From Rhea pennata (Eukaryota; Chordata; Aves; Rheiformes; Rheidae), in contig NW_026907680.1 of NCBI RefSeq assembly GCF_028389875.1, positions 620,001-684,000 on the forward strand: a stretch of DNA of 64,000 bases, in the 5' to 3' direction. The notes under the pieces were generated by a model. It saw only the letters and a program-made list of their open reading frames with translations. It ran no database searches and was not told the origin of the DNA. The translations under genes were made by a program, and so were the position numbers. This document shows positions 8,838-34,999 of the stretch, piece after piece. Each line of letters starts with the position of its first letter. The stretch's first letter is position 1.

Positions 8838-8840
8838 AAC

Positions 8841-10284: not shown

Positions 10285-10489
10285 CTGGGAGAGGGGAAAA
10301 AAAATCCAGTGTTAGTTTTACAGCACACGTAGCCCAAAGCATTTGTCGAAATAAATAGTACCTGGGAGTGGATGGTGCAAAAATGTAGAGAGATGTAAAG
10401 CCCTCAGAGGAACTCAAAATGAAAGGGGCCCACACAGATGAAGACATTTGATTTTTTGTGTTTGATTATCACTCAACGGGCTCCTGAAA

Positions 10490-10828
10490 GAGAGTGAAGG
10501 AAATTCCACTGGATATCCCCGTCAAAGGGATGGGGCCGAACTCTTTTCACTAGTGCCACGCAACAGGACAAGAGGCAACGGGCACAAACTGAACCAGCGG
10601 AAGCTCCGCCTCAATATGAGGAGGAATTTCTTCCCTGTGAGAGTGACTGAGCACTGGGAGAGGTTTCCCAGAGACATTGTGGAGTCTCCTCCTCTGGGGA
10701 GATTCAGACCCTGCCCGGATGCAACCCTGTCTAACATGGTCTAGGTGACCCTGCCTGAGCAGGGAGGTTGGACTAGATGATCCCCTGAGGTCCCTTCCAA
10801 CCTTACCCATTCTGTGATTCTGTGATAT
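10490..10828 (+). mobile_element. CR1 LINE 3' fragment
   Basis: The segment has typical avian CR1 3' features: aactgaaccagcggaagctc-type text, a gttggactagatgatcccct block, and a short tail of repeated TTCTGTGAT. It is truncated at the 5' end. The mirror copy is at about 32011-32345 on the minus strand. Confidence 0.85.
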
Positions 10829-12971
10829 GCACCACACGTTTTCAGAAAACCCACCGACCATATCTACTTACACCATTGGCCAACCTGGACCCCTCAGGTC
10901 TCTCTGTCTCCAAGCGTCCCATCTTCTTTCACAGCTCAGAAAGGCAGTTTTATGGAGGACAAATCTTTTAGCCGCTTTCTGCTGAGCCTTCTCGATGGAG
11001 ATGTATATGCATACACAAACACACACACGGGTACCACTTGCCCTGTCGAAACTTCCTTTTTTTCCAGGGAAGCTCCTCTACAGGACTATGTAAAACAACC
11101 AAGAAGACCCTCACTGTCTTCCTGCATCGAGCACAATCAGATAAAGTCTCAGAAGCCAATAAATGACACTGCTCCCAGTCAGCATGGGATGACATTCAAA
11201 AATGCTAGTGTTAGGCAAGAGGTTTGTGGACATGCCAGCAAGTGTTGAAAGCTGTAGAGAAACAAATCACAGTGCTGGGTGAGGAAAAGATCCTGGAGCA
11301 AAAAGGACCTCTCTGAGAGCTCTGTGCTTTGAAATAGGTCCTGTCACAAAGCAGGGACTCCAGAGGAACCAGTTTGCCCTCCTCCTCCGCCCATACCTTT
11401 CCTTTGTCAGAGCCTGGGAAGCACACTGCATACACGAGTGGAAGGCCCACATCTCCAATGGATCTGAGGAGCTTTCCTTCTCTGACAATACCTATGCAGA
11501 CTCTTCCTGTGCCCTTCTGCGAATGGAGCCATTAGGAGCCACAGTCATCTCAGTGTGGCCGGGGACACTGGTGGGGAGTTCTTGTTTTCTTCTTGAAATT
11601 GTATGAGTAAAGAGAAAAGCAAGAACTCAGCCCGTCCAGGAGAGCTCCTGCTGAAGGTGGCAGCCCAGCATGCCAAGAGGCCCACTTTCCTTCTGAGACC
11701 ATACTTGAAGACCAGGCTGAGAAATTGTGGGCTTTCGCTGAGGACTTTGGCTCCCCAGTATGACTTAAGGCCTTTGTGATGAGTTCCCGTGCCCTTTTCC
11801 GATCCAAATCATGCTCCATACGTGCCCCATACAGGCAGCTGACTCTCTGCTGCGACAATCGTGGTCTGGAGGAAAAAGCCAGCCCAAGATGTCTTTCTGC
11901 CTTGCTTGCTTCTGGTAGGGATCAATCTTTTCAAACAAACCAAAACCAGAACCTCTCATTCCTCTCCATGTTATAGGCTCCCCAAATAAGAGCTACAGAA
12001 GGACCAAAGCACAGGGAATGGCTGGGCAATAAAGTGCCAGAGGGTATTTGCTGCAGGAGGAGTGAGGCCTGTTGGGGAGAAAATGACCACATCTGAACTT
12101 TGCATGCACCGGGGCAGGCTGTGAGCTAACAGCTCTTGGTCAGGAAGGAGAGGCAAGAGAGAGGTCGCTGAAAGCCGCATCTCCTTGCCCTGCAGAGGTG
12201 AGAAGAAGCCCAGCAGAAGTGCTTTGAAGAGGAAGAGAGAAGACAAGCAAGGAGCCGCATGTGACCCTGCCACAGGTTGACGGTGTGCTTTCAGCCCAAG
12301 GTGGGGGTGCGCTTCTAAAAGGACCAAGCAGGCAAAGGCTTTGTGTCTCCTGCCTCTGGCTGAGGAAGCTCCCAGGCCTCAGGCTGCTGGAAGAAGACCC
12401 TGTTGGGGCAATCAGTGCATTCTTGGCTGTTCTGCACCTACTTGCTGCTGTTCCAGCCTGTGCTGAAACACCATGTGACTGGAGCCAGTGCTCTCTGCTC
12501 CTGCTCTGCAAAGCTGTTGGCCTAAGCCTCTTCACTCCCTCGGCATCCATGGCAAAGCCATCAAAGGACGCCAGCTTCGGATGAGATCAGTCTAATGCCT
12601 CGTGTTTCCCAGCACAGGAGCTCTGGCTTCCTCCGCTTGCTGCTTTGTTTGCAAGAGCAACCTCTTTTTGTCTCTCAGAGTCCTACCTTTGAAGGGCAGG
12701 CTTGTTCCATTTGTCTTCCCCTCAGGGATGGGAGGTGCAAGAGCAGAATCTGGCAGAAAATAGGACGCAAGCACAGAGCTGAGGAATGAGCCCAAAGACA
12801 GCAAAGGCCTCTTCTCCCACTGCGGGCTGCAGCTCTCGGAACCCTGGCCTCAAGTACTGCGTGAGCTGCAGTCTGCAAGCAGAACCTCCGTGTTTGTGGA
12901 GAAAATGGGCACAGGCATCTTGGATGTCTGCAGTCTTCTCCACGGGACTTGCCAGAGTTGATGTACTGCTA

Positions 12972-13405
12972 TGAAGATGGTTAGAAGGCTGGGTCATCTC
13001 TCTAAGGAGGAAAGGCTGTAAGGACTGTGCTTGTTTAGCCTCCAGAAGAGAAGCCTGAGAGGGGATCTTACCCATGTCTACAAATACCTCAAGGGAGGGT
13101 GTCAAGAGGATGGGAGCGGGCTCTTTTCTGTGGTGCCAAGTGCTAGGAGAAGAGGCAGTGCACACGAACAAGAACACAGGGAGCTCCACCTGACTCTGAG
13201 GAAAAACTTCTTTCTGGTGAGAGTGACCGAGCATTGGGACAGGTTGTCCAGAGAGGTAGTGGAGTTTCCTTCTCTGGAGACATTCAGAGGCTGCCTGGTG
13301 TGATCCTGTGCAGTGTGCTGTAGGTGACCCTGCTTGAGCAGGGGGGTTGGACGAGATGATCTCCAGAGGCCCCTTCCAACCTCCACCCTTCGATGATTCT
13401 GTGAT
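12972..13405 (+). mobile_element. CR1 LINE 3' fragment
   Basis: This is the 3' end of a CR1 element, including a ggggttggacgagatgatct block and the terminal GATTCTGTGAT. Only its last ~100 bases recur in inverted form at about 46411-46515, so the inverted copy there starts inside this element. Confidence 0.88.
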
Positions 13406-14448
13406 GGGCGCTTTCTCTCGCAGCTCCTGCTGTGGGGGTAATGGAAAATGTGTGGAGGACAAAGAGGCTAGAAGCTGGTCTGAGGTGCGGATCCTTACCG
13501 AGGCTTGTCAGCCTGCAGAGAGAAGGGGACTCAATCCTCATGTAGTGCTGATGAAAGTCTCCCTGAGCAGGCTCTCAAGCAAAGCTCCTGCATTTGCAGA
13601 TGCGCACGTACCAGATGGAACGATGAAGCCTGGTCCTCCAGAATCGCCATTGCTAGTGAGGGGCCGCAGGCTTTGCCCTGACTTGGGCTTGCTGGAGTGT
13701 CAAGGTGGAGCAGAGTGGCACTTGGAGGAGGCTCTCCTTCAGCAGCTTAAAGGCCTGCCAGCTTTCCTGAGCTCCTTTGCCCTTCTGAGCTGCCTCCCCT
13801 GTCGTCCCCCTAGCAGGTCTCTGCAGAAGGGGAAGCCTGCTCGCCTCAAGGCCAGCCTCTGGGCTCTGCTGCCCTCCTTCCTACCTGCCCTCCGGCTCTG
13901 CAACTCCACTAGTTCCCGGGTGCTACAGCCCAGGTGGCCATGGATTCTGCTGGCACCAAGCCTCCGGGGTGGCCGCTTCGCCTTCTGGCCTGGGGCACCC
14001 GCCTTCTTCCCCTCACACCCACAAAAGCCCAGCACTCAAGGGCACCCAGGACACACACAAGAGCTGGCAGTTCCCTCCCCACATGCAGCCAGCACTGGGC
14101 CCCAGCAAGGGGGGCCCAGGCTCAAGCACTTCCTCCCCTCAGAGGCATACAGCAGCTTTTTCCTCCTCTCCCCACAGGCCCCCTGCCCCCAGGACATGTG
14201 TTGGCCATGGCACGGCCTTCTCCACGCCTCTCTCCAGCACAACAAGACGCAGCACACCCCTAGGCCACAGCCACCGCAGCTGCAGCCAAAGAGCCACAGC
14301 ACGACCGCGGCGGAGAGCTGCCCTGGCAGCAGCCCCTGAGCCCTGACTCCTCAGCTCTGCTCTTCAGGACTCCCCAAAGCTCCAACGCTGCAAACGGACG
14401 AGCTCACCACACACCCAGCCAAGAGCCACCCAACTTGGGGCAGTTGGT
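13406..14448. other. 3' flank of serine-rich exon, duplicated inverted
   Basis: This segment is the reverse complement of about 45361-46410. It carries a long open frame on the plus strand, but that frame has no recognisable domain and is low in complexity, so I do not call it a gene. For the CCDC81-like gene this is downstream of the stop codon and may hold its 3' UTR. Confidence 0.5.
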
Positions 14449-15159
14449 TTAATTCAGCTTCAGAGAACTTCCTGGGTGCTCGCGTGGCTCACAAGCAGTG
14501 CTGCTGCTGCTGCTGCTGCTGCTGTTGTGGCTGCTGCTGTGGCCACTGCCACTGCCCCTGGGGCTCCCACTGCCGTTGATGCTCTGTCTGACACTGGGTC
14601 TTCGTGTGCCGCTGCCACTGCCAGTGGGGCTGCTGTTGAGTCCAGCATTGGAGCTTCCACTGCCACTGCTGCTACGAGCGGGTTTCCCGCTGTGTCCAAC
14701 ATTGGAGCTCCCACTGTCACTGCCGCTGTGTTTGTCACTGGCACTTGGGCTGCCGCTGTGCCCGCCACTGGGGCTCCCAGTGACGCTGCCACCGCCAGTG
14801 GATCTGCTGCTGCGTCTGCCACTGGGGCTTCCACTGCCCCTGCCGCTGACACTGGGGCTGCCGCTCTGTCTGCCACCCGGGCTCCCACTGCCACTGCCAC
14901 GCTGCCTGCTACTGACACTGGGGCTGCCGTTCTCTTTTGCAGTGGGGCTTCCACTGCCGCTGCCTCTGGGTCTCCCGCTGACACTGCCGCTGATACTGCC
15001 CCTGCCACTGCTGCTGCGTCTTCTGCTAAAACTGGCTCTGCTGGGCTCTTTGCCACTGCTGCTGCGTCTTCTGCTAAAACTGGCTCTGCTGGTCTCTTTG
15101 CCACTGCTGCTGCTCTTTCTTCTGCTTGCCTGTGTCTCTGCACACGGCTCTTCTTCCCC
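14449..15159 (-). CDS. Ser-rich minisatellite terminal exon of CCDC81-like gene
   Basis: After a strong acceptor (cctccttgtgcag) the phase-0 frame begins GEEEPCAETQ. It continues through two SRASFSRRRSSSGK repeats, then a long stretch of SGSGSP / GSPSV type repeats, and ends PGSSLKLN before TAA. It has 236 residues. The DNA is a minisatellite built of 6-base steps (GGCAGT, GGCAGC, CCCAGT), ending in a (CAG)n run on the coding strand near 14501-14523. It should be disordered, and the RRRSSS motifs look like basophilic kinase or SR-type sites. Because the repeat is a multiple of three, all frames are open; the acceptor phase is what selects this one. Related copies lie at 36239-36859 and, inverted, at 44570-45360. 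Confidence 0.65.
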   Translation of the reverse strand, partial: GEEEPCAETQASRRKSSSSGKETSRASFSRRRSSSGKEPSRASFSRRRSSSGRGSISGSVSGRPRGSGSGSPTAKENGSPSVSSRQRGSGSGSPGGRQSGSPSVSGRGSGSPSGRRSSRSTGGGSVTGSPSGGHSGSPSASDKHSGSDSGSSNVGHSGKPARSSSGSGSSNAGLNSSPTGSGSGTRRPSVRQSINGSGSPRGSGSGHSSSHNSSSSSSSSTACEPREHPGSSLKLN

Positions 15160-18100
15160 CTGCACAAGGAGGCAGAAAGAACAGGCTGTGTTCTGCCCTG
15201 CCAGAAAGCCCAGGAAGACTGCAGACTCGTGAGGGCCAGGGATGTTTGCGGGAGCTTCTGAGGGTGTTGCCAGCCTCACCGTCATGGGACAGGGGAGCTT
15301 GTTTGGACACAGCTCATCAGCCCGTGGCAGAGGCTGCTGGTACCAGGACTGGCAGGTACCTGTGTCGTCTTGGCTTCAGCAGTCAGGGAGAGCTTTGCAA
15401 AGGGGCACACCAACGCTGGAAGCATCCCTTTGCGCTCAGCTGCTCAGATCTTGCAGGTGCCACTGTTGGAGGCCATTCTCAGCACTCAACAGCTGCCCCT
15501 TGGCTGGAAGGCAAGGCTGAGCCCAGGCCAGCCCTGTGGCTTGCTCATGGGGCAATGGGGCTGCAGCCGCACTGACACCTTGTCTCTCTCACTCGGCCTC
15601 AGAGCCCTCCTGCTTATCTCCTCCTCTACTCCCTCAACCCCGCTCCCATTTGCAGCCACAGCCCTTCAGCTCCACAGCAGTGCTGGGCATTTGCTGAGTG
15701 CTGCAAGGAGGGACTTAGTGACAGGCTTTAAGCCACATAAATCTCATGTCAGAAAAAGTCACAGCACGCTCTAGGCAGCACAGTGGCTCCGGGATTACAA
15801 GTGGCACCCCTTGCTGCCTCACTGCCTCTCAGTTCTGCCAGGCTTCTCCTGGAGCTGCCACATACCTGCCCTGTCTTGCAAGGCCCCTCTTGACTGTCCA
15901 GCCCTTCCTCCTCTTCCTCTAGGCAGGAGAAGTAGACCTTCAGGGTCACTTGCTTGTCTTCTCCCAGCTGGTATTGGACGATCTTCTGAATATTGGGCTT
16001 TTCTTCAGCCAGATTCTCAGCACCCTCCTGCACCTGCAAGACAACTCCACACTGTGCAATGTGCCCCACTTCCAAGTCCACTCCGCTGCTCTCCACATGC
16101 TCCTCACCAGCATCCAGAGACTGCAGGACCTTGGCAATCACCAGGCCCCTGGCTCTGACCTGGCCTGGGGCACCCGCCGGACAACGGCTGCTGCCACCCC
16201 AGCAGCAGAAGAGCAAGGGGCACCGCAACATGTCCCAGGCTTTGTGACCTTCTCCTGAGCCTTCCTGCCAGCACCCTATTGCCCTGAAGGGAAGACCAGC
16301 CATGCTGAACATCCCCTTCTCATTCGCACCAAGCATCTCAATAATCACACAGCTGAGCAGAAACTCTCCATGGTCTCTCACTGAAAACCCCAGCACTACC
16401 ATGGCCAGAAAAAAAGAGAGGGTCCCAGGGGCTCTGCTGGAGTGTTCGAGGAGGGCGCAGCAGCAAGAGCTATATTGCAAAACTAGAGCCCAAGCAGTGC
16501 CTTTGAAGGCAAGCCCTGGGCCAAGTCAGCCAGGGCTCAGCAGAGCCCATGGGAAGGGCTCTTGTCCCAGAGAAGAATGCTTCTGCAGACAAAGGAGCTC
16601 AGGGAGGAGCACCTACCTGTCTTGCCTTCGGAGCGCTTTCATTCACAGCCCACACAGCTCGCACTCTAGTGCGTGGCGGTTGTTCCCAGGCGCCTGGGGC
16701 CGGCCATTTGGCAAAACACTCTGGGGTGGTGGAAAACATCCTGCAAATAGGCACCAGGGAGGTGGCATGAGCCCGGGGAAGCTGGGGAGTTTGGACTCCA
16801 CGCAGCGCTCCCAAGGAGGGCACCTGCCTCTGCAGCAGAAGGCAGTTCTGCAGCAGCAGCACGGGGGTTCCACTGACGGGGATCACATCCACAGACACGG
16901 AAATCACCTCCCGCCAAAACACCCACAGCTACACAATGTGCCCGCTGGAGAGCTCCGGGTGCCCACAGCGAGACTTTCTCTCCAGGCAGCAAGGAGAGCA
17001 GCAGGGTCCCCTACAAGGACAGCCTCCAACTCACACCATTACCTGTGTCCTGTCAACTGCATTAGCCACTGCTCCGTGGCCCCAAGGACTCGGTGTTCCG
17101 GGATGGGCAATGGATTGCTGCTGGGCACCCAGCAACAGAGAAGGAGAAAGGCATGAAGGCAGCCCAGAATAAAGCCCTTGTGTGGTGGGAGCCAGCACAG
17201 AGTTGGCCAAAGCCCCCCACAGAGCCCATATGAAGGCAGAGCATGCCCGGAGGTCACAGGGACACTGTCGCTGGGAAGTCTTGCTCCCAAAGCACTTTCA
17301 GAGCAGCCTTTGCCAGCCCTGGCACTGCAGCCCTAACAAACCTGCGCCGAGAAGATGCTCTCTTGCTAAACTGGAGGCTAGGGAGCCAACAAATATACTC
17401 ACGTTGGAAACATATGGCGGCGGGGAGTACGGGCCTGGACATCGAGGGCTTTGGTGGCTGCAAGGATCGAGTCTCTCATCTCCAGCATCTGCACAGGGGA
17501 GAAACACAGGTGAGATGCTGCCAAGAAGAGGATCTTGCTGCTCACAAGGGCAGCCAATGTTTGCACTGTTCAGAGAAGAAGCTGCCTCTCAGAACAGCAG
17601 AAACAACCTTCTCTCTTGCTCACTGCAACCCCTCCATTCTACACAATAGCTGCTCCCTGGACATACAGGCAAATGGGGAAAAGCTCTGGCAGGCTTTTGT
17701 CAAGGGCAAGAGCCAAGAGGCTGATCCAGGAGAGCAGTTCTTGCCTAAGGGAGAGACTGAGGGAGGGCAGCGCAGGGGAGGGCCACTGACTAAGATCAAG
17801 GGCAATGTGCAGGGCAGTCCTGCCAGGGAGGACAGGAGGGGGCAGTGGGGGCTACGGCAGGTCTCTTTTCCCAGAAGGGAAGATTATTTCTCAGCCTCTG
17901 CTCTGACCCTTCCCATGCGTCTTCCTGCAAACACCCTACTGCCCTGAAGGAAAGACTAGCAACACTGAACATCCCATTCTCATTAATCACACAACTGAGC
18001 AGAAACTGAATTTTCTATCGCAGAAAGGCTCTGCAGTTCAGAGGCAATCAAAAACGGGACCCCGGTGCCTCTGCTGGTGTGTTCAAGGAGGGCGCAGCAG

Positions 18101-21100
18101 AAAGAGCTATATTGCAAACCTGGAGCACAAGCGGTGCCTGTGAAGGCAAGCCCCGGGCCAAGTCTTGCAAGGCTCAGCAGAGCCCATGGGAAGGGCTCTT
18201 GTACAGCCAGCGCCCATAGCACAAGGCCTGGGCAGAAAGCAGGCTGGCACATGAAGGGCCTCAATGAGGAGCACTTACCACGCCAGACCTCTGACGGCCC
18301 TCGCTCAGAGGACATGCAGCTAGTTCTCTCCGTTTCTTCTTCCTGCCCGCTGCTGCACTCTGTGCAGAGCACTCTGAGGTGACTGGCACCGGCCTGCAAA
18401 TACACACCGCGGAGAGGTGATATGAGCACAGGGGGAGTAGGGTCCCCAGCTGGCCCTCACCAGCTTCACACCTGCTCCTGCAGCAGAAGGCAATTCTGCA
18501 GCAGAAGCACAGGGCTCCCACTGAGTGTGGCCACATCAGAGCATCACCTCCCACCAAAACACCTGGGGCTGCACGTCATGCCTGAAGGAGAGCTCCAGGA
18601 GCCCAAGGGAGACTCTCTCCAGGCAGTGAGGAGAGCAGCAGGGTCATCTGCAAGGACAGGCTCTAAAATACATCATTACCTGCTGTCCTGCCAACTACAT
18701 AAGACCTGAACACTCTGTGTTCAGGGATGGGCAATAGGTTGTTGCTGGGCACCCAGTGTCGAAGAAGGAGAAAGGTATCAAGGCAGTCAAGCATTAAGCT
18801 CTTGCATAGTGGGAGGCAGCACAGAGCTCTGCTGAACCCTCTCCCCACCCACAGAGCCCAGATGAAGGCAGCGCATGCGTGCAGGTCACTGGGACCCAGC
18901 CGCTTGGAATTTTTGCTCCCAAAGCACTTTCAGAGCAGCCTTCACCAGCCCTGGCACTGCAGCCCTAACAAACCCTGGCAGAGAGGCTGCTGCCTTCGTC
19001 AGGCAGGGGGAAAAGAAGGAAGGGAAAGTACTCACCTTAGGAACATGTTTGGAAGAGATGCAGGGGACACAATCGGAGCTGCTTTAGGAGCTGTCGGGAT
19101 TGAATCCCTGTGTATTTTCATCTGCAAAGGTGAGAAAGAGAGGTGAGATGCTGCCAAGTAAAGGCTCTTGCTGCTGGCAAGGGCAGCCCATGTTTCCATG
19201 CTCCGGAGAAGAAGCTGCCTCTCGGAACTGCAGAAACAGCTATCGTTCTTGCTCACAGTAGCCCCTCCATTCCACACAAGCACAGCTGCAGGGGAATATG
19301 GGCAAAGAGCTAAATGTTCTGGCAGGCTTTTGTCAAGGGAAGAGCCAAAAGGCTGATCCAGAAGAGCATGAAGGAGTCAAGGGAGGCAAGCGCAGGGGAA
19401 GGCAGCTCACTAAACTCTAGGGCAATATGCAGGGCAGTCCTGCTAGGGAGGACAGGAGGGGGCAGTGGGGGCTGCAGCAGGTCTCTTTTCCCAGAAGGGA
19501 AAATTATTTCTCAGGCTCTGCTCTGACCCTTCCCATGCGCCTTCCTACAAACATCCTACTGCCCTGAAGGAAAGACCAGTCACACTGAACATCCCGTTCT
19601 CATTTGCACCCAGCATCTCAATAATCACTCAACTGAGCAGAAACTGAATTTTCTATCGCAGAAAGGCTCTGCAGTTCAGAGGCAATCAAAAAACGGGACC
19701 CCGGTGCCTCTGCTGGTGTGTTCAAGGAGGGCGCAGCAGCAAGAGCTATATTGCAAACCTGGAGCACAAGCGGTGCCTGTGAAGGCAAGCCCCGGGCCAA
19801 GTCTTGAAAGGCTCAGCAGAGCCCATGGGAAGGGCTCTTGTACAGCCAGCGCCCATAGCACAAGGCCTGGGCAGAGAGCAGGCTGGCACATGAAGGGCCT
19901 CAATGAGGAGCACTTACCACGCCAGACCTCTGACGGTCCTCGCTCAGAGGACATGCAGCTAGTGCTCGGGCTTCTCTCCGTTCCTTCTTCCTGCCCACTG
20001 CTGCTCCACTCTGTGCAAAGCACTCTAAGGTGACTGGCACTGGCCTGCAAATACACACCGCGGAGAGGTGATATGAGCACAGGGAGAGTAGGGTCCCCAC
20101 CTGGCCCTCACCAGCTTCACACCTGCTCCTGCAGCAGAAGGCAATTCTGCAGCAGAAGCACAGGGCTCCCACTGACTGCGGCCACATCAGAGCATCACCT
20201 CCCACCAAAACACCTGGGGCTGCACGTCATGCCTGAAGGAGAGCTCCAGGAGCCCAAGGGAGACTCTCTCCAGGCAGTGAGGAGAGCAGCAGGGTCATCT
20301 GCCAGGACAGGCTCCAAGGCACAGCATTACCTGCTGTCCTGTCAGCTACATAAGACCTGAACACTCTGTGTTCAGGGATGGGCAATAGGTTGTTGCTGGG
20401 CTCCCAGTGTCGAAGAAGGAGAAAGATATCAAGGCAGTCAAGCATAAAGCTCTTGCATAGTGGGAGGCAGCTCTGCAGAACCCTCTCCCCACCCACAGAG
20501 CCCAGATGAAGGCAGAGCATGCGTGCAGGTCACTGGGACCCAGCCGCTTGGAATTTTTGCTCCCAAAGCACTTTCAGAGCAGCCTCCCCCAGCCCTGGCA
20601 ATGCAGCCCTAACAAACCTGTGCGGAGAGGCTGCTGCCTTTGTCAGGAAGAGGGGAAAGAAGGAAGGCAAAGTACTCACCTTAGGAACATGTTTGGAAGA
20701 GGTGCAGGGGACACAATCGGAGCTGCTTTAGGAGCTGTCGGGATTGAATCCCTGTGTATTTTCATCTGCAAAGGTGAGAAAGAGAGGTGAGATGCTTCCA
20801 AGGAAAGGATCTTGCTGCTGGTAAGGGCAGCCCATGTTTCCATGCTCCGGAGAAGAAGCTGCCTCTCAGAATTGCAGAAACAGCCGTTGATCCTTTGCTC
20901 TTGCTCACAGCAGCCCCTCCATTCCACACAAGAGCAGCTGCAGGGGAATATGGGCAAAGAGCTAAATGTTCTGGCAGGCTTTTGTCCAGGGAAGAGCCAA
21001 AAGGCTGATCCAGGACAGAACGGAGACATCAAGGGAGGCAAGCGCAGGGGAAGCCAGCTCAGAAGCTTCTCCAGAAGGGAAGGTTCTTCCCCAGCCTCTG

Positions 21101-24100
21101 CTCTGAGCCTTCCCGGGAGCCTTCCTGTCAGCACCCTTTTACCCTGAAGGGAAGCCCAGAAAGGCTGAACATCCCTTTCCTGCTTGAAAGAAGCATCTGA
21201 ATTATCACAGAGCTGAGCAGAAGCTCTTCACTTTCTATCACAGAAAGGCCCAGCACTTCCAGTGCCACCAGCAGGAGGGCCCCAGAGGCTCTGCTGGTGT
21301 GTTCACGGAGAGCAAGGTGCAACAGCGTGTGCATTCCACAACTACATTCACCACTGCTGCCTTTGAAGGCAGGACTGGGCGATGTCGGGCAGGGCTCAGT
21401 GAACCCATGGGAAGGGCTCTTGCAAGCCAGCGCCCATAGCACAAGGAGTTTGCAGGAAGCAAGCTGGAAAAGAAGGGCCCCCAGCAGTGACACTTACTGC
21501 TCTGGCATTCTCGTCCACTTCATTCCCAGGCCACTCAGTAGGTGCTCCACCTTCTGATGATGGCTTCCTCCCGCCTGGCACTGCCTTCTGGGCAGAGCAC
21601 TCTGGGGTGCCTAGGAATGGACTGCAAATACACACCACGGGGAGGTGGCATGAGCACAGGGGCAGTAGGGTCCCCATTTCAGCCTGACAAGTTGGGCACC
21701 TGCTTCTACCGCAGAAGGCAGTTCTGTAGCAGAAGCACGTGGGTCCCCCTCACTGGGGTCACATCAACAGAAACGGGGATCACCCCCTAACAAAACACCC
21801 AGGGCTGCAGATCATGCCTGAAGGAGAGCTCTGGACACAACCACAGTGAAAATTTCTCTCCATGCAGGAAGGCGAGCAGCAGGGTCATCTGGCAGGACAG
21901 GCTCCCAGGCACAGCATTACGCGCTGTGCTGCCGACTACATTAGCCACTGCCCCATGGCCCCAAGGACTCTGTGTTCCGGGATGGGCAATGGATTGCTGC
22001 TGGGCACCCAGTGACAAAGACAGAGAAAGGCATCAAGGCAGTCCAGAATAAAGCTCTTGCGTGGTGGGAGACAGCATAAATCTTGGCTTAGGGCCTCCAA
22101 CAGACCCTGTATGAAGGCAGAGCCACTGGGATGCAGCCGCTGGGAAGTCTTGCTCCCAAAGCACTTTCAGAGCAGCCTCCCCCAGCCCTGGCACTGCAGC
22201 CCTATCAAACCTGTGCTGAGAGGCTGCTGCCTTCGTCAGTCAGGGGAAAAGAAGCAAGGCAAAGTACTCACGTTGGAAAAATACTTGGAAGAGCACAAGG
22301 GGCCTCAGTCTCACTCCTCTGGCTGGCTTCGAGGACTGAGTCCCTCATCTCCAGCATCTGCAAAGGTGAGAAACACCGGTGAGATGCTGCCAAGGAAAGA
22401 ATCTTGCTGCTGGCAAAGGCAGCTAAAGTTTCCACTACTCAGAAAAGAAGAAGCTGCCTCTCAGAAACTCTGAAATACCCATCATTGTTGCTCACAGCAG
22501 CCCCTCCATTCCACACAAGACCAGCTGTAGGAGAATATAGGCAAAAGTCTAAAAGCTCTGGCAGGATTATGTCCAGGGCAAGCACAAAGAGGCTAATCCA
22601 GCAGAGCATTGGGAAGTCAAGGCAGGCAAGTGCAGGGGAAGGCAGCTCACTAAACTCTAGGGCAATGTGCAGGGCAGTCCTGCTAGGGAGGATGAGAGAG
22701 GGCAGTGGGGGTTACGGCAGCTCTGTTTTCCCAGAAGGGAAGGTTCTTTCTCAGCCTCTGCTCTGACCCTTCCCTGTCAGTGCTCTTTTACCCTGAAGGG
22801 AAGCCCAGCAAGGCTGAACATCCCTTTCCTGTTTGAACCAAGCATCTGAATAATCACACCGCTGAACAGAATCTCTCCATCTGCTATAGCAGAAAGGCCC
22901 AGCAGTTCCACGGCCACTAGAGCGAGGGCCCCAGAGGCTCTGCTGGGAGAGGTTAATGGAGAGTGAAGGAGTCATGAGAGATGCACTGCAGAAGTAGAGC
23001 ACAAGCAGCGCCTTTGACAGCTAACCCCGGGGACAGTCAGGCAGGGCCCAGAGGAACCCATGGGAAGGGCTCTTGTCCAGCCAGTGCCCACACCACGATG
23101 CTTTGGCAGAAAGCAAGCTGCCAAAAGAAGGACCTCCATCAGGAGCACCTACCTCTCTTGACTTCTGATAGCCAGTCTCGGGCCAGCCAGCTCCTGCTCT
23201 GGCTTCTGGCAGCTGCTTCCTCCAGCCCAGTAAATCCTCCTTTGCAGAGCTAGGCTGAATTGCTGGCAGCATGCTGCAAATACACACCGTGGGGAAGTGT
23301 GACACAGAGACTCCCCACCACCCAACCACCCAGGGCTGCACAGCGTGCCCGAGGGAAAGCTCTGGGTGCCCACATCAAGACTTTTTCTCCAGGCACCAAG
23401 GAGAGCAGCAGGGTCAGCTCCAAGGACAGGCTCCAGGACACACCATTACCCACTGTCCTGAGCACTCCAGTAGCCACTGCTGTGTGGCCCCCAAGGACAA
23501 GCTTTCTTGGAAGCTTCAGAAATGGAACCGGGAATAACTGCTCTGTCCCTTGCAGTCCTTCCGTCTTCAGGCACTCATGTCCCTCCTTCCCATCCTCTTC
23601 AAAGTGCCCAAACAACTCGCCCTTGCCTCTAAGGGCTGCCTGAGCCATGGCCACACCCTCTCGAGCCTGCTGCTCGCCACCCCTGACTGCTGCCTGGAAA
23701 TGACCCTCCTTCCTCCTTGCTGCTGGCAGTCAAAGGAAGGGCATTGCCCAAGGGGAAACACCACAGCTTTGGGGAGATATTCACCCAAGGCATCCTCCCC
23801 TCCAGCAGCATTCCCTGCACACCCCTCTTGCACCTCGCACCAGTTGAGCTTTTCCACTTAGCTCCTCACAAGGCCTGACAAGGGCATGCAGACTCTTCCT
23901 CAGCCTCCAAAATTGCCCTGAGACACCCAGCCCTGCTCTCCACAGAGGAGCAGCATTCTCCTTACTTTCATCTATGGGCTAGGGGAAAAGGCCCTCCTCT
24001 TCCCGAAGGACCAATTACATTGAGTTGCCCAAAGATCTGGAAGCTGGAAGCAGAGGCAGCGGGGGCAGAAAGCCAAGAGCAGGCTCTGCCAGGCACTTGC

Positions 24101-27100
24101 TCTTGTCTGCCCAACCAGCGAGGGAGGCCTAGTCCTCGTGGCAGAGCTTAAAAGGCATTCAGAGCTCCTCAGGACCTTGTGTCCAAGGGAAACATCACCC
24201 TCCAAGACACACAAGGCTACAGGGTCACCCTCCGCCATTCCCCCAAGTGTCTCACCTGCCTCGAGGCTCTTCCTCCACCATGCCTTCCTCCACATTGGTA
24301 GCCACCACTTTGGATTCAGGCTGCCTCTCTCGCTGGAGGAGGCGCTGGCCAGATACATGCTCTGCAATCAGAAGGGAAGAAAACACACAGTCAAGCCAAA
24401 GGCTGTGCTTTGGAAATGTGTAGGAGAAACACAGAAGGCAAGGGCAGAACGAATTGCTTTGAAGGTGGAAGGAAGTCTTGGCACAAGTGAGCAGATTGTC
24501 GACTCCCCATCAGGGCTGAGCTGCCTTGCCTCTAGTGCCTCATGCTAGGCGAGCCACGGTGCTGCAGCCTTGGCTCCAATGCCCTGCCAAGGACCAACAA
24601 AGGAGAAGGTGCAAAGCCCAGCCAGGCATCAGCCACTCCATTACCTTCCTTGCTGCTGGCAACATCTAGTCCCTTCTCTTCTTCCCACGTGGGCTTCACA
24701 GCTCCCACAGATGGTCTTGGAGGGGCACTCTCAAGCACATACCTGTAAACCAGAAAAAGATACCACTCGCAAGGAAGGGCCCTGCATTTCCTTTGCTGCT
24801 TCTGTGAATTCTGGGCGTGCAGGCACATTGCGAAGCTGATACAAACAGCAGCCTTTCCCAAAGGGGGAATATGCAGGACAGGTCATCTCCTGCAGGACTC
24901 CCTCAGGAAGTGCAGGGACCCAGCATCCTGCCTGCAGGGCCACCAGCTTCCTCCTCACACTGCTCCAGGCCTTCCCTCTACCCCTGGGGAGAGAGCTCCT
25001 TCTCAGCTTTCCAAAGCAAACCCTCCAGGTCAACACTGCAGCCTGTCTGACAGCTCCTGAGCAGGCTCCTGTGCAGGCACATCAGACAAGGCCCCTTTCC
25101 TCCAGCTTTCCACCCTCTTAGGAAATTCTAATCTAGACCTCCACAGCCCTTGCAATCCCTCCCAAGCTCAGGGCAGAGCATCTGCAAAGAACAGCCTCCA
25201 TTCCTGGGCCCCTAGTGCAACAAAGGCCTTCACAAGGTGGGAGCCAGCACAGAGCTCAGCAGAACCCCCACACAGAGCCCAAGCAAAGCCAGGGCATGGC
25301 TGAAGCACACGGGGATCCAACTCCTCAGAAGACTTGCTCTGCAAGCACATCCTGAGCAGCCTTCACTAGCTCTGGCAACACACCTCGACCAAACCTGTAG
25401 TGAGGAGCTGCTCTTTGGGTGAGCCAGGAACTCAGGTGGAAAGGAGCAAACCAAAGTACTCACGTTGGAAAGACAATGAGAGAGCCAGAATGGATCAGGG
25501 AAGCCGCTGTTTGGGTGCTTGCGAGAACTGAATGCCTCATCTCTGGCATCTGCAAAGGGCAGAGACATGGGTGAGATGCTACGAAGAAAAGGACCTTGCT
25601 GCCCACAAGGGCAGACCATGTTTCCACTAATCAGAGAAGAAGCTGCCACTCAGAAAGAGGGAAACACCCCTCGCTCTTGCTCACAGCCATCCCCACCTCC
25701 ATTCTACAGACCAGCAGGTGCGGAATAATACAGGCAGATGGCCAGAAACACTGGCAGGCTTCTGTCAAGGGCAAGAGCCAAGAGGCTGATGCAGGAGAGC
25801 ACTTGTTGCATAGTGGAGAAGTCAAGGGAGGCAAACAGAGGCCTTCTGCACCAGAAAGCCCAGGCTGAATGACACGGCTGCACTGGAGACCTGGGCAAAG
25901 GCCCTGGCTTGCAATGACTTTGTCTGTGACAAACCCCGAGAGTCTTCTGCAACTTGAGGAGCAGCTGTTGGACGCACTGCCCCACAATCCCAAACATGGC
26001 CAGAGGAGGCCTGGAGACAAATGGGATCCTAACACAAAGACCCCAAGGAAAGGCTGACTTTCTGGAAGACTTCTGGAGGAAGCCTAGCAGGAAAGAACTC
26101 CCAGGACCTGGCAGTGGGGGGAAAGCGGTTGCTTTGGACTTGGCCAGGCTTGCAAAGGGGTGAGAAGGAGAGCTGTGGAAAAAGGCAGACTTACATCCAG
26201 AAGAGCTTTGAGCAGCTGTGGGGAGGCATTCAGCCTGCGCAGAAAGCCTCTGTAAAACCACATTGTCACCTCTTTGCCTTCAATGAGAAGCACGCCAATG
26301 CCCTTGAAAAGAAGGGCCACGTTCTTCCCATTGGCCAGGCAGCAAGACAGAAGGTACACGGTCTCCTCCACGCAGGCCGCCACTGTTTTCCAAGGCACGG
26401 AGATGGCCACGGCTACGTGAGGATACTTGAGGGTCTCAGCTTTCCTGCGCCCTAGGCAACAAGCAAAGAGCAGCCCAGTCACGGACGGAGCCCTTCAGCA
26501 GGCTCCCACACAGTGCTGGGCGCCTGAAGGTCTTGCGGCAGCACGGAGCTGCAGAGCTCTCTGCTTTAACCCCCACAAAAGCCCCCACAGGAGGCTCCTG
26601 TCAGCCCTCCCTGACCCAGATTCAAAGCACTCTGCAGCCTCCTGGGCCAAGTTTACCGCAGGGCTTCCTTCCCTGCACAGACACCAAGAGCAAGCCCTGG
26701 CCACCTCCTGGGAGCGGGAGGCAGGAGGGCAGGCCAAGCAGAGCAGCAAGGGGGCCAGCTGCCAGCAGAAGGCAGTGCACAGAGGAATGGTGCCGGCACT
26801 CAGGCCATGCTTTGACGAGCCTTAGCTGTGCCATGTCACGCTGGCTCCAAAGGAGGAGGAAAACACATGGGCTGCACAACAGCCTTCCACGCTGCCTCTT
26901 AATCCATTGGTGTTAGGAAGCAATAGGAAGGACTTGTCCTTTTGAGCAGACGGCTGCTGTGGCATCAACAGGGAACAACAGTGGCAACTACACGGCACTG
27001 GAAGCAGCAGCCACAAAAGCCCCACTATGGAGCCACGTGTTCGAGCCAGTGCAAGAGAGAGACACACCGAGAGACTCTCGTTGGATTCTGCATTATAATG

Positions 27101-28258
27101 TTGTGATAATCAAAACACCCTGAAGCTCTGCTCAGCACCCGGGGCAGCAAGTCTCAATTTCTAACAGCCCCTGGGAAACAGCAGAGAGCCACAGCCCCGC
27201 AATGTCCCCAGGGGAAGCCGAGGTTTCAGTCTGCCTTCTTACCAGCAACAGAGGCCTCCTCGTGGCTGAGGCCGTGAAGATCCACAAGGTTGCTTGAGAG
27301 GCGAAATGCGGGTCTCTGAACAGTCAGAGGACTTTTCTTGCCAGCAACGACTTGTTTTGTAGCAACACTGAAGTTGCCAAGGGGAATAATTCTCACATCC
27401 TGCAGCCAGAGAAGTAGAGAGAAGCCTTAGAAGCATGGGAGACAAAGAGAGAGTTGTTCTCCAAGCATGGCCACGGTGCTAGGTGCCCTGCCCATGGCTG
27501 GCATGCAAAGGGGCAAGACAGAGCCTTCTGGAAAGCTTGGCGGAAGCCCTGGAGAACTCCCTGAGAAGGCCATTCCCCATAGTTTCCTCCCCCTCCTCCT
27601 CAGCCTCCAAAGGCAACGTTGCCGCCCCTCCAGCACACGAAGAAAAGGCTTTCCCAGAACGGCTCTCTTTCTGGCCTTGCACTCTGCCAGGATCTCCAGA
27701 GAGGGCCCAGAAAGCCTCCCACCCTTCCAGCAACCACAGCTGCACTGCACATTGGGCACCTCCCTTTTGGGAGAAGTCGGTCTGGGGCACAGCTGTCATT
27801 TGCAGCATGCTTCTGCAGGGAAGTTGCTTCTGCTTGGAGAGGAGGGGCAGGACTATTGCGGCCCATGGCCCCGAGGGGTCAGTGCTGCTGCCAGCATGGG
27901 TATGGGAGGGGAGGGAGAGGATGGCACACCCACCTTGTTCAGCACCAGCTTCTCCTGGATGTAGTTGGAGACACCCTCCCAGATGGGCACGGCCACTGCA
28001 AAGCAAGGCAAAGACACGTCATGCCCCCTGCACCACAAGGCACCATCAGCGGAGGACCCTTGGGGCACCCCCAGCCTGCCCAGGCTCCCCAAAGCCCCCG
28101 GGCATCTACAGCCCATCTTGGCGCTCAGCCTCTCGACAGCGATCCTGGGCAAGGAGGTCGCGAAGGCCTTACCCCGCAGGGGGATGACGGGCACCCGCTG
28201 CTCACGCTGCGTGGCGCGGCACTTGTGGGGCTGCCGTGACCCCCGCACTGGGGAGGTC
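14449..28258 (-). CDS. CCDC81-like HU-domain protein with exon-cassette array
   Basis: I join 17 exons whose phases all agree: 27934-27995, 27243-27399, 26195-26451, 25464-25549, 24645-24742, 24256-24361, 23153-23273, 22272-22357, 21498-21621, 20680-20765, 19918-20044, 19036-19121, 18279-18393, 17403-17488, 16617-16740, 15866-16159 and 14449-15159. They total 2,726 bases, 909 codons with the one base owed by an upstream exon (possibly 28173-28258, weak). The first three exons encode the paired eukaryotic HU domains of CCDC81. Next come repeated two-exon cassettes, an acidic exon and a Ser-rich exon. Human CCDC81 is centrosomal, and its HU domains are thought to bind proteins rather than DNA. 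Bird copies are greatly expanded and their role is unknown. The start codon is not located, and splicing of the whole array into one mRNA is inferred. Confidence 0.7.
15866..16159 (-). CDS. Acidic 98-codon exon of CCDC81-like gene
   Basis: This 294-bp exon (acceptor ccaggccag, donor gtatgt) is phase 0 at both ends. It begins VRARGLVIAKVLQSLDAGEE and ends in an acidic run (LEEEEEGLDSQEG). It fits exactly between the last array cassette and the Ser-rich exon. I do not recognise a domain in it. The isolated unit at 37-38 kb lacks it. Confidence 0.6.
16617..17488 (-). CDS. Cassette U1: exons 17403-17488 and 16617-16740
   Basis: The 86-bp exon begins MLEMRDSILAATKAL and ends two bases into a Thr codon. 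The 124-bp exon supplies the third base and continues in the PEC frame (STTPECFAKWPAPG), ending phase 0 before gtaggt. Together they make 210 bases, 70 codons. Confidence 0.62.
18279..19121 (-). CDS. Cassette U2: exons 19036-19121 and 18279-18393
   Basis: The first exon (86 bp) starts MKIHRDSIPTAPKAA. The second (115 bp) reads PVPVTSECSAQSAAAGRKKK in frame and ends before gtaagt. The 115-bp exon is 12 bases shorter than in U3, a frame-keeping difference. Confidence 0.62.
19918..20765 (-). CDS. Cassette U3: exons 20680-20765 and 19918-20044
   Basis: This is nearly the same as U2. The first exon is 86 bp and the second 127 bp, with RKKERREARALAACPLSE and no stop. Acceptor and donor dinucleotides are intact at both exons. 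Confidence 0.62.
21498..22357 (-). CDS. Cassette U4: exons 22272-22357 and 21498-21621
   Basis: The first exon reads MLEMRDSVLEASQRSETEA (86 bp). The second reads PFLGTPECSAQKAVPGGRK (124 bp), phase 0 at its end before gtaagt. This unit is the source of the inverted fragment at 39.94-40.75 kb. Confidence 0.62.
23153..23273 (-). CDS. Cassette U5: second exon only
   Basis: This 121-bp exon starts in the same phase as the other second exons and reads MLPAIQPSSAKEDLLGWRKQ. The unit has no recognisable 86-bp exon. The preceding exon, 24256-24361, ends with two bases of a codon, so it joins this one in frame. Confidence 0.55.
24256..25549 (-). CDS. Unit U6: exons 25464-25549, 24645-24742, 24256-24361
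   Basis: The 86-bp exon (MPEMRHSVLASTQTAA) follows the HU exons in phase 0. The 98-bp exon reads YVLESAPPRPSVGAVKPTWE and ends one base into a codon. The 106-bp exon accepts that phase and reads HVSGQRLLQRERQPES, then an acidic run. Unlike the array units, this has three exons, and may be the ancestral arrangement. Confidence 0.55.
26195..26451 (-). CDS. CCDC81-like second HU-domain exon
   Basis: The 257-bp exon reads HVAVAISVPWKTVAACVEET, then NGKNVALLFKGIGVLLIEGK and VTMWFYRGFLRRLN. FKGIGVLLI followed by the short basic/aromatic strand is the signature of the second eukaryotic HU domain of CCDC81. Acceptor (tgcctag) and donor (gtaagt) are good. It enters in phase 1 and leaves in phase 0, matching its neighbours. 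Confidence 0.82.
27243..27399 (-). CDS. CCDC81-like first HU domain, core exon
   Basis: The 157-bp exon reads DVRIIPLGNFSVATKQVV, then SPLTVQRPAFRLSSNLVDLH and ends one base into a codon. The IPxLGxF strand and QRPxF segment are hallmarks of the first HU domain of CCDC81. It joins 27934-27995 in phase 0 and 26195-26451 in phase 1. Confidence 0.82.
27934..27995 (-). CDS. CCDC81-like first HU domain, N-terminal helix exon
   Basis: The 62-bp exon encodes IWEGVSNYIQEKLVLNK, the opening helix of the CCDC81 HU domain. The acceptor is tttgcag and the donor gtgggt. It starts with two bases of a codon, so a coding exon must lie upstream. 28173-28258 has the right end phase and plausible sites but no family similarity I can confirm. 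Confidence 0.8.
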
Positions 28259-28299
28259 CTGGGGCAGGGATAACCCCACCGGGGGACCGGCTGGGCTGG

Positions 28300-30259
28300 G
28301 TGCTGCGGCTGCACTCAGCCAGGCCATGGCCCCATGCTGGAAACCTGGCTGCGAGGGGAGGGGGGCAGTGGGGCACTGCACCAGCCTCCACCCATGGCGA
28401 CACAGCACAGGCTGCGGCTCCTGCTGCCCCCAGTGCAAGGAAGTGCTGAGAACGGACCGATGGCAGGGAAACCTCCAGCAAGGCCTTGGCAGGCAGCAAA
28501 GCCCTGGCTCAGTGCCGAAGGAGAAGTTTCTTCCTGCCAGGCGTGGGCAGCTGGTGCATCCTGCCTCTGGGAATGTCCCCCAGAGCCCCCAGATGATGCC
28601 ACACACGGGTCTGTGTCTCTCCACATTGCCCAGGGAGAGCTCGCAGGCTCTTGCGCATGCCCTGGATCACCTCTGGCACCTCTGGTGTCACCCAGTGTTT
28701 CCACGGCAGCAGCTGACTCCCACCTTCCACCACCTTGGACTGGAAATGGGAGGGGGGACAAGGAGCTCGCACACTTCTGTGCACCTCTTTTGGGCACACG
28801 GCAGCTTAAGCAGGATGAATCCCACAACCGTCCTGGGGGTTGGTGGCGTGCATGGGATGGAGGTGTCTGCCCCACCACCTGGAGGGCTTCTCCCCAAAGA
28901 AATGAGGGGCCCAGGCTGACTCAGCTCACTCACTCCCCGAAGCCTGGGGAAATGACTTCCCTGCTGGGTGCAGGAGCAGCTCCTCTGCCAGGAGCCGCAG
29001 TGCTGAGGGCACTGCCTGCCCGTGCTGAGCTGAGCTGAGACAAAACGGAGGGAAGCTCCGGACGCTCAGGAGGGAGGCAGCAGCTGAGAGCTCCTTCTGG
29101 CAGAAATGGGCAGAGCCCTTCCAGTGGGAAGTCTCTGGCTGCAGGGCAGTGCTGCTGAGCTGCTCGCGGGGTCCTGGAGACCTCGCGCAGGTGATGGTTG
29201 AGGCCATCTTTCCAGAGAGCTCTCTCGGTGGAGCAGCTGGTGCTTTAGGGCAGGGACTTGCTGCCACAGTGTCCGAGGGACAGGGCGGCACGGCTTCCTT
29301 CTGCCGGGGAGGGTGTAGGGCTGTGCGAGCAGGGCGTGCGTGCAGCCAGGTGTGCCCAGGGCTGTGCCTGAGAGCAGTGTCCTGGGAGGTCAGGGTGCCC
29401 AGGGCCATGCCTCTGCCACCTGCCTTGGTCAGCACTCAGCCCGCCTGGGCAACTGCCTGCAGCGCTGCGTGGAGAAGCCATGGTGGGAAGTAGCAGCCCA
29501 CAGAAGGGCAGGATCTTGCTGTCCCAGATCAGAGGCTGTGTGGGGCAAGGCTGCTCAGAGCTGCTGCTCAGCCCCAGGAACTTGCCCGGAGGAAAGTCAA
29601 GGCAGGGACCACTCCACAGGGAAGGAGGTTTCCTGAGTGTTGGCTTTCTGTTCCACGCTGTTGTTTTGGGGGAAGGGAAAAGGAGGTGCCAAGGCTGGAG
29701 AAGAGCTGGAGACTGGGGAGGCTGCTGAGGGGTCAGCAGGTCTGTGGGGAAGCTCAGAAAGTGCTTTTGCCCCTGCTCTGCCCACGCACAGCAGCAGCAG
29801 CAGCAGCAGCTCTGCTGGCCCCAGGAGCCTTTGTGGCAGCTGCTCCTTGGCACCTGCCAAGAGGTGGGTGCCCCAAGGCAGTGCCCTGCTGCCGGGAGGG
29901 CTCTCTGGGGCACAGCGAAGTGCCCCAGAAGTGGGCTGGGGTCTGTTGGCTAAGGCAGGCAATGGACGCAGGAGAGGGCATTTGGTGCTGGCAGGAAAAG
30001 CAGCAGGCGGTGGAGCCATGGTGCGAGAAGGGGAGGAAGGCAGAACAGAAGTGCGGTGGGAGGGAGAATTAGGGAATTTAGCTCTCTTCTCCTCCATTGC
30101 AGATGTTTTCCTCCCAGAAAACCCCACATGGCCTCTGCCAGCCCGCAGAGCCTCTGCCCCACAGGCCCCAGGGCCAGGCCAGGCACTGCCTTCTCTGCAG
30201 ACAGACCTCTGGCTGAGGAGAGAGTCCGATTCCAACGAGATGTTACTCCAGCCTAGGCC
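28300..30259. other. Upstream flank of CCDC81-like gene, no gene recognised
   Basis: This is GC-rich sequence with many overlapping open frames on both strands and a short (CAG)7 run near 29790-29810. It should contain the promoter and first exon(s) of the CCDC81-like gene, but I could not place a start codon or TATA-type element. Confidence 0.4.
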
Positions 30260-32010: not shown

Positions 32011-32345
32011 TCACAGAATCACAGAATGGGTAAGGTTGGAAGGGACCTCAGGGGATCATCTTGTCCTACCTCCCTGCTCAAGCAGGGTCACCTCGATCAT
32101 GTTAGACAGGGTTGCATCTGGGCAGGGTCTGAATCTCTCCAGAGGAGGAGACTCCACAATGTCTCTGGGAAACCTCTCCCAGTGCTCGATCACTCTCACA
32201 GGGAAGAAATTCCTCCTCATATTGAGGCGGAGCTTCCGCTGGTTCAGTTTGTGCCCGTTGCCTCTTGTCCTGTTGCATGGCACTAGTGAAAAGAGTTCGG
32301 CCCCATCCCTTTGATGGGGATATCCAGTGGAATTTCCTTCACTCT
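32011..32345 (-). mobile_element. CR1 LINE 3' fragment (mirror copy)
   Basis: This is the reverse complement of the fragment at 10490-10828, starting with the ATCACAGAATCACAGAAT tail. Because the same CR1 sits in both arms, it was inserted before the inverted duplication. Confidence 0.85.
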
Positions 32346-32554
32346 CTTTCAAGAGCATGTTGAGTGATAATCAAACACAAAAAATCAAATGTCTTCCTCT
32401 GTGTGGGCCCCTTTCATTTTGAGTTCCTCTGAGGGCTTTACATCTCTCTACATTTTTGCACCGTCCACTCCCATGTACTATTTATTTCCACAAACGCTTT
32501 GGGCTACGTGTGCTGAAAAACTAACACTGGGTTTTTTTTTTCCCCCTCTCCCAG

Positions 32555-34991: not shown

Positions 34992-34999
34992 CTGTGGGA

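Follow-up and report, generated by a model that had tools for sequence, protein, structure and literature searches.

A predicted HU-CCDC81 gene with a modular exon-cassette arm, repeated in tandem in the Rhea pennata genome

Exons and domains of the predicted gene

The window – the whole 64,000-nucleotide stretch of Rhea pennata DNA analyzed here – contains a predicted HU-CCDC81 gene on its minus strand. We traced its chain from 27995 to 14449 through 17 exons, with the frame open throughout. This gives 866 codons rather than the 909 counted in an earlier note on this DNA; in the 866-codon model we chose where the final two exons (E16 and E17) begin and end. E1 begins at an acceptor in phase 1, so a coding exon upstream is absent from the model; no clear first coding exon was found, and upstream translations compared with paralogs gave conserved stretches, some of them stop-broken. 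Plus-strand open reading frames at 14347-15261 were discarded as the reverse of the Ser-rich exon. The exons, all on the minus strand, are:

E1, 27934..27995, minus: 62 bp, first part of HU domain 1, acceptor at its start
E2, 27243..27399, minus: 157 bp, remainder of HU domain 1; also in paralog loci on C29, C139, C140, C23, C26 and C1
E3, 26195..26451, minus: 257 bp, HU domain 2 (PF18289, E 2e-19)
E4, 25464..25549, minus: 86 bp, probably the single-copy founder position; likewise 86 bp in paralogs on C29, C139 and C140
E5, 24645..24742, minus: 98 bp
E6, 24256..24361, minus: 106 bp
E7, 23153..23273, minus: 121 bp, second exon of the first cassette
E8, 22272..22357, minus: 86 bp, cassette 2
E9, 21498..21621, minus: 124-bp second exon, cassette 2
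E10, 20680..20765, minus: 86 bp, cassette 3
E11, 19918..20044, minus: 127-bp second exon, cassette 3; missing in gene copy +1
E12, 19036..19121, minus: 86 bp, cassette 4; missing in gene copy +1
E13, 18279..18393, minus: 115-bp second exon, cassette 4
E14, 17403..17488, minus: 86 bp, cassette 5
E15, 16617..16740, minus: 124-bp second exon, cassette 5
E16, 15866..16033, minus: 168 bp, acidic; a model of middling confidence is beta-rich; related places on C29 (three) and C139 (two)
E17, 14449..15159, minus: 711 bp, Ser/Gly/Arg-rich last exon ending in TAA

Judged from its sequence, the gene is a member of the HU-CCDC81 family, as the earlier note had proposed, because both HU domains exceed their curated Pfam cut-offs: HU domain 1 (PF14908) scores 34.3 bits against 26.1, over profile positions 27-88 of 89, and HU domain 2 (PF18289) scores 69.8 bits against 26.1. 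The HU head also matches CCDC81 chain 8snb_1K across 155 residues (29-183, E 4.4e-19), and the E1-E2-E3 order is kept in all seven paralog loci compared. Canonical CCDC81 (PF14908 plus PF18289; 8snb chain 1K) thus has both HU domains in common with this gene, in the same HU1-HU2 order. However, the canonical protein is a 696-residue chain, whereas this gene is unmatched beyond the HU head (E4-E16) and has a cassette array and a Ser-rich tail. With E4-E16 (471 aa, E17 lying outside the query) we found no PDB chain at E 1, 8snb included, a search that weak similarity could escape, and no Pfam family above cut-off. The HU head had no match in a phage collection.

Beyond the head, the gene is built from cassettes of ~70 residues, the size given in the earlier note, each an 86-bp exon followed by a second exon. 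All of these exons have AG/GT borders. Every 86-bp exon opens in phase 0 and ends on two bases of a codon that the second exon completes with one, which bears out the phase 0-0 arrangement read in the earlier note. The second exons it listed as 124, 115, 127, 124 and 121 bp do differ by multiples of three; along the gene they run 121 bp (from 23273), 124 bp (from 21621), 127 bp (from 20044), 115 bp (from 18393) and 124 bp (from 16740). The two exons are adjacent in cassettes 2-5 (four pairs), while the first cassette is split, with the 98-bp and 106-bp exons standing in phase between E4 (86 bp) and E7 (121 bp). Past the array the frame runs on through the acidic exon (16033-15866) and the Ser-rich one (15159-14449, TAA end), a junction that was also correctly described before. 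In order, the predicted protein comprises two HU domains, an array encoded by ~70-codon exon pairs, an acidic segment rich in beta structure (E16) and a basic, Ser-rich end (E17). Folded alone, E16 gave three strands (pLDDT 69.5); a single-exon fold of E3 was unusable (pLDDT 46.5).

The window also holds fragments of related units:

36242..36877, minus: fragment B, Ser-rich exon, no HU exon beside it by tblastn
37379..37501, minus: fragment B, second exon, 123 bp, out of frame
38152..38237, minus: fragment B, 86-bp exon
39932..40776, plus: fragment C, unit piece, 94% to 21164-22000
44558..45360, plus: fragment C, Ser-rich stretch, matches in two different frames

A Pfam scan of five open reading frames at 40796-47432 returned nothing at E 0.01, and Rfam at gathering thresholds gave no match within the window. 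Near 13300-13410 lies what we take to be a CR1-like 3' end.

Gene copies and cassette number

The predicted gene belongs to a large set of near-identical copies. Most of the window is a single unit of a tandem array:

1..59419, no strand assigned: tandem-array unit of 59.4 kb; 1-4581 recurs at 59420-64000 (99.94%)

The flanks of the window repeat it at 99.0% and 99.9%. Among 461 candidate HU2 places in the genome we scored 150, comprising 59 on this 4.05-Mb contig (C143), 20 on C141 and 71 on C140. All 150 pass the PF18289 cut-off and none contains a stop codon, which upholds the idea of many family copies; in control genomes PF18289 matches occurred in 3 of 14, none of them above cut-off.

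Cassette number varies between copies. It could be sized by distance in 38 of the 59 C143 copies (five cassettes in 7, four in 29, three in 1 and 1 unclear), numbers that are inferred from distances beyond the few loci read directly. All seven five-cassette copies have two E10-type exons 1,644 bp apart. The proposal of a length-variable array therefore stands as regards number; the gene being one of many near-identical copies, what varies is many loci with three, four or five cassettes and not a single locus.

Direct reading shows that the number changes by whole units, with the frame kept. Copy +1, the neighboring copy, which differs from the window at 32 of 12,757 sites (~0.25%), lacks only E11 and E12 – one unit lost, frame intact – and seems to have joined E10 to E13 within the intron, judging by the one exon site that separates E10 from E12. 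An inverted copy (L031) runs from E2 to E11 and then to E14, one unit fewer than the window. In copy -1 (stretch L030) exons E7-E17 agree with the window, E4-E6 lying beyond the stretch read. Two further stretches (L025 and L026) hold units resembling fragment B, and another (L029) has no gene copy because array unit lengths differ.

A more distant sister gene on C141 is 86-93% identical over its first 4.5 kb. It keeps the splice sites and the exon lengths 86, 98, 106, 121, 86, 124, 86 and 121, a conservation that, on sequence comparison, is beyond chance. It also carries a chimeric cassette, unit K1. This chimera and the loss in copy +1 are the two cassette rearrangements seen. Since cassettes are phase 0 at both ends, recombination between units can drop, add or recombine them with the frame unbroken.

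Divergence of cassette exons and introns

Cassettes within the gene differ more in their exons than in their introns (p ~0.45 versus 0.22), with the excess present at silent sites too. In two unit comparisons exon p was 0.446 and 0.460 while intron windows averaged 0.217 and 0.218, and none of the 1228 and 1120 windows, respectively, came up to the exon level. Identity falls at exon borders. In three diverged unit pairs both exon indels are 3 bp long, while 12 of the 54 intron indels are multiples of 3; the U10-U12 comparison adds exon indels of 3 and 9 bp. E7 departs from the pattern, its upstream intron being unalignable with the others (p ~0.57, above the exon p of 0.43-0.46).

One reading of this divergence is a burst of diversifying selection, in which recently duplicated cassettes had their exons driven apart by selection on the protein. 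This main rival is compatible with part of the explanation that we prefer; we judge it possible but rather unlikely. Polarized with C29 or C140 as outgroup, unique exon changes number 22-33 in E8, E10 and E14 against 8-9 in E4, introns lacking such an excess; the E4 exon is no faster than its own intron, the E10 branch is ~2.4 times its sister E8 in exons and not in introns, and replacement rates on the array branches are 2.6-3.4 times the intron rate. N/S between the window and C141 is 2.19 for E7, which would favor such a burst, and 1.20 for E6, the two jointly not significant (p 0.39). Silent changes, however, have risen as much as replacements: with both rates free, each is 2.6-3.2 times the intron rate under the exon topology, and letting the silent rate vary raises lnL by 13-17 units under that topology. 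Omega on the array branches is 1.08-1.13, indistinguishable from 1 under both topologies. E12/E13, C139 and C140p were left out of these models as near copies of E10/E11, C29 and C140m, respectively, and E7 because the intron upstream of it is not homologous; the first second-exon-like place on C29, which has no aligned donor, was replaced by the next. A tree from 240 bp of intron recovered the exon topology with support 40 at the array node; a longer, worse-aligned intron set grouped E14 with C29 and C140m (support 70).

Codon positions give the same picture as the codon models, and simple positive selection (omega >1) among cassettes is unsupported by either. The codon-position bias whose absence, by the earlier note, would speak against its reading is indeed lacking in deep comparisons, where the three positions differ almost equally – cassettes 2 and 3 differ at 27, 34 and 30 first, second and third positions over 69 codons – but appears as a silent excess in the recent pair formed by the window and L031. 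Likewise, dN/dS across cassettes is ~0.4 to 1.1 within the gene (NG86, pairwise, silent divergence high) and falls to 0.19 for cassette exons in the recent pair (E8-E14: N 4/376.7, S 7/124.3, p 0.0065). Over all exons compared the recent pair has N 12/867.8 and S 11/290.2, a dN/dS of 0.36 (Fisher p 0.025) that represents 23 changes in one pair of copies, and no exon indel across E3-E11. This shows that the window-L031 pair is under purifying selection, a further point against a burst.

Exon-targeted hypermutation or segment switching, described in exons of some venom genes, would swap exon pieces wholesale and raise silent and replacement changes together. We find it improbable here: it would suit the equal, exon-confined rise of both classes and the drop in identity at exon borders, but exons of the window-L031 pair are less diverged than introns (22/1090 versus 281/6280), so no such process is visible in that pair. 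Copy +1 shows the opposite to L031, exons differing from the window more than introns (13/2,387 versus 19/10,370), mostly through E17, which holds 10 of the 13 exon changes; this also counts against the constraint seen in the recent pair. A decaying or non-coding array, with frames open only since the copies are young, is very improbable: fragments B and C, out of frame or without HU exons, and the lack of Pfam or PDB relatives for E4-E16 would agree with it, but the low dN/dS of the recent pair, the exon lengths and splice sites kept on C141 and the E4 length conserved on three other contigs all speak against it.

A modular arm and its possible function

We consider it likely that the window holds one of the copies of a protein-coding HU-CCDC81 gene amplified into megabase tandem arrays, with a modular cassette arm that combines old exon types with homogenized introns. 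The exon types – E4, E8, E10/E12 and E14 among 86-bp exons, and E7, E9, E11/E13 and E15 among second exons – would be old, distinct and kept, while repeated recombination in introns would homogenize the sequence between them and reshuffle units. The protein would have two HU domains as its head, then an arm of ~70-residue cassettes that is probably flexible, a module that is acidic and beta-rich, and a basic tail rich in Ser, Gly and Arg; the head would bind one constant partner, while reach and binding sites would differ from arm to arm.

Apolipoprotein(a), with its kringle IV type 2 array, and NBPF, with its Olduvai triplets, also consist of phase-symmetric multi-exon cassettes whose number shifts by unequal recombination. 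The array described here appears to work like these, though the proteins are unrelated; unlike them, it varies within a single genome, between dozens of tandemly repeated genes, and its exons are far more diverged than its introns. A literature search on kringle IV cassettes found no paper, as did one on CCDC81, the HU domain and birds, and we claim no absence from print in either case.

As to function, we lean tentatively towards a protein that would bind nucleic acid or foreign elements in the germline, a candidate role that we put slightly ahead of one at the cilium or centrosome. Under the latter, which is possible though somewhat doubtful, the protein would, like canonical CCDC81, belong to the cilium or the sperm axoneme, its arm tuning microtubule binding and its expansion reflecting sperm competition. 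The HU head does match CCDC81 of 8snb, presumably a sea-urchin sperm doublet microtubule, but E4-E16 match neither that chain nor any other PDB chain at E 1. In Tetrahymena, CCDC81b has been put forward as a protein of the axonemal inner junction (PMC11961760), which also favors a ciliary role. A bolder version of the germline role, which we rate as rather improbable, is that the arrays encode combinatorial recognition in the germline: a few old and distinct half-cassettes would be reshuffled by recombination in the intron that separates the two exons of a cassette, across dozens of copies, so that HU-headed proteins would set varied arms against changing targets such as mobile elements.

Avian genomes are known for an HU-CCDC81 expansion with very many clade copies, as in this genome; here we describe, from sequence, an array of multi-exon cassettes, its variation in number and a chimeric unit. 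Burroughs, Aravind and colleagues reportedly discussed this expansion in 2017 and suggested a role in recognizing non-self or invasive elements; to our knowledge, the reason for it is unexplained. Here copies only ~0.25% apart retain the HU head but differ by whole exon pairs in a phase-symmetric arm. Such a modular, recombining arm offers a concrete handle on the expansion in birds, which becomes testable: which exon types exist, in which combinations, where they are expressed and what holds the types apart.

Gene model and cassette structure

The window's HU-CCDC81-like gene runs from an HU head (exons E1-E3) through a cassette region to an acidic exon (E16, net charge -8) and a Ser-rich last exon (E17, 35% Ser, net charge +22).

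27995 to 14449, minus strand: HU-CCDC81 gene, 17 phase-matched exons with AG/GT borders
Within E1-E3, minus strand: HU domain PF14908 (Pfam, 34.3 bits; cut-off 26.1)
Within E1-E3, minus strand: HU domain PF18289 (Pfam, 69.8 bits; cut-off 26.1)

The 17-exon chain gives 866 codons with a single stop, at its end; a search for the first coding exon did not find it. A 155-residue HU stretch of E1-E3 matched PDB chain 8snb_1K, which is named CCDC81 (E 4.4e-19). For the 471 residues of E4-E16, a Pfam scan gave no family above cut-off, and a search of PDB chains gave no match at E 1.

We confirmed five 86-bp exons (E4, E8, E10, E12, E14) and five second exons of 121, 124, 127, 115 and 124 bp (E7, E9, E11, E13, E15); each exon pair contributes ~70 codons. 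Four of these pairs are adjacent; E5 (98 bp) and E6 (106 bp), likewise phase-matched, stand between E4 and E7.

Tandem copies and cassette number

The window (C143:620001-684000, in an assembly of 1.27 Gb and 180 contigs) repeats its opening 4,581 bases at its end with 99.94% identity. The 10 kb preceding it match window 49402-59419 (98.96%) and the 10 kb following it match window 4582-14581 (99.89%). A PF18289 profile search of the assembly returned 461 candidates, and all 150 scored exceeded the cut-off; a match was present in 3 of 14 control genomes, none exceeding it. A search that used the window's own HU2 sequence returned 449 candidates. The 150 scored, none of which contained a stop, lay on C143 (59), C141 (20) and C140 (71); copy counts from both searches are lower bounds. 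HU2 spacing on C143 recurs as a block of ~310 kb.

Other arrays and elements were also observed. Six HU2 copies ~19.5 kb apart, without an E14 match, form a sub-array at C143:3532747-3630736. C23:303995-1007466 holds at least 48 HU-CCDC81 places on one strand throughout, mostly ~13.6 kb apart, and spacing in the C29 and C139 arrays is about 26-32 kb. Within the window, a gammaretrovirus-like provirus (2709-9393, minus strand) has LTR-like repeats at 2709-3264 and 8839-9393 (92.4%) and ORFs with Gag_p30, RVT_1/RNaseH and rve/MLVIN_C domains; it lies partly within the stretch that recurs at the window end. Two inverted repeats (9394-12485/33427-30359, 95.1%; 13306-14964/46511-44845, 94.3%) overlap or flank the gene's 3' end and a partial gene copy, fragment C (39932-40776 and 44558-45360, plus strand), and the array also contains inverted gene copies such as L031. 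Window 40800-48000 has 63-69% GC and long ORFs, five of which were scanned with no Pfam match at E 0.01.

Cassette number varies among copies. The neighbouring copy -1 has the same E7-E17 as the window, over a fetched stretch that did not reach E4-E6. Copy +1, on the other side, lacks E11 and E12 only, so that E13 follows E10; placing the join in the intron downstream of the 86-bp exon depends on the single site that distinguishes E10 from E12. L031 runs from E2 to E11 and then E14, where its fetched stretch stops, and has one unit fewer.

We sized C143 copies by the distance from HU2 to an E14 match on the same strand within 15 kb (40 of 54 candidate E14 matches scored), which made 38 of 59 HU2 places sizable. 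Four cassettes (7.29-7.39 kb) were found in 29 copies, five (~8.93 kb) in 7 and three (5.73 kb) in 1; one copy at 6.76 kb is ambiguous. All 7 five-cassette copies carry two E10-type exons 1,644 bp apart, though as 40 of 174 E10-type candidates were scored, absence of a second exon from other copies is no proof. Copy 703970 has four cassettes, whereas its counterpart in the ~310-kb block, copy 1191442, has five; its cassette loss therefore seems to postdate the block duplication.

Divergence of cassette exons and introns

Outside exons, repeat units U8, U10 and U14 share 77-79% identity, against 50-59% within exons, with the fall located at exon borders. Cassette exons gave p of 0.446 and 0.460, reached by 0/1228 and 0/1120 equal-length intron windows. 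E7 is exceptional, as its upstream intron is unalignable with other cassettes' introns. Against paralogous references on C29 and C140, E8, E10 and E14 differ by 0.395-0.523 and introns by 0.18-0.34; the E4 exon (0.244; intron 0.27-0.29) is not faster. Between C29 and C140 themselves, exon and intron are about equal (0.116 and 0.152; second exon 0.331, intron 0.307).

In our codon model, array branches had an omega of 1.08-1.13 and the remaining branches 0.70-0.79, a difference that is not significant. With branch lengths fixed to a weakly supported intron tree, array branches showed 2.6-3.2 times the intron rate for replacement and silent changes alike (0.9-1.3 on other branches). Faster silent change is not a prediction of positive selection on the protein alone, but is one of old exon types combined with homogenised introns. 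The sister gene on C141 contains a chimeric unit whose 86-bp exon and upstream flank resemble E10 and fragment B (a partial copy at 36242-38237, minus strand) and whose second exon and preceding intron resemble E9, which shows recombination between a cassette's two exons. That the E8 and E10 branches are unequal suggests an additional contribution from true acceleration. We regard old exon types with homogenised introns as part of the best explanation of the locus, a probable one; confidence in it is slightly lowered by how weakly the intron tree and the position of the copy +1 join are supported.

One recent pair of copies points to constraint. The window copy and L031 differ at 22/1,090 exon and 281/6,280 intron sites, with no exon indels in E3-E11. 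By NG86, E3-E11 plus E14 gave N 12/867.8 and S 11/290.2 (ratio 0.36, Fisher p 0.025), and cassette exons E8-E14 gave N 4/376.7 and S 7/124.3 (ratio 0.19, p 0.0065). Against the C141 gene, the N/S ratio was 0.73 for five exons pooled (E4, E5 and E9, 0.15-0.34; E6, 1.20; E7, 2.19). Between copy +1 and the window, 13/2,387 exon and 19/10,370 intron sites differ, which counts against this picture; E17 holds 10 of those 13 exon differences. The window's E17 differs from each of two neighbouring copies at 10 sites, the remaining exons being almost identical, and may be a conversion tract, possibly from fragment C.

Relatives and possible function

E1-E2-E3 order is kept in all seven paralog loci (C29, C139, two on C140, C23, C26 and C1), and E4 is present in the C29, C139 and both C140 loci. 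The C29, C139 and C140 loci have one cassette-type 86-bp exon each in the 17-19 kb fetched per locus; judged over that span, cassettes seem to have multiplied in the C143 and C141 clade only. C29 has three places with an E16 relative and C139 has two, and the threefold presence of this acidic, beta-rich module in the C29 region suggests that multiplication in other clades may involve a different exon.

Burroughs and colleagues reportedly suggested that HU-CCDC81 proteins may act in recognition of invasive elements. Tetrahymena CCDC81b has been proposed to be an axonemal inner-junction protein (PMC11961760). The predicted protein, with a conserved head, a length-variable arm of low hydrophobicity and a basic tail, would fit either a nucleic-acid adaptor or a microtubule-linked protein.
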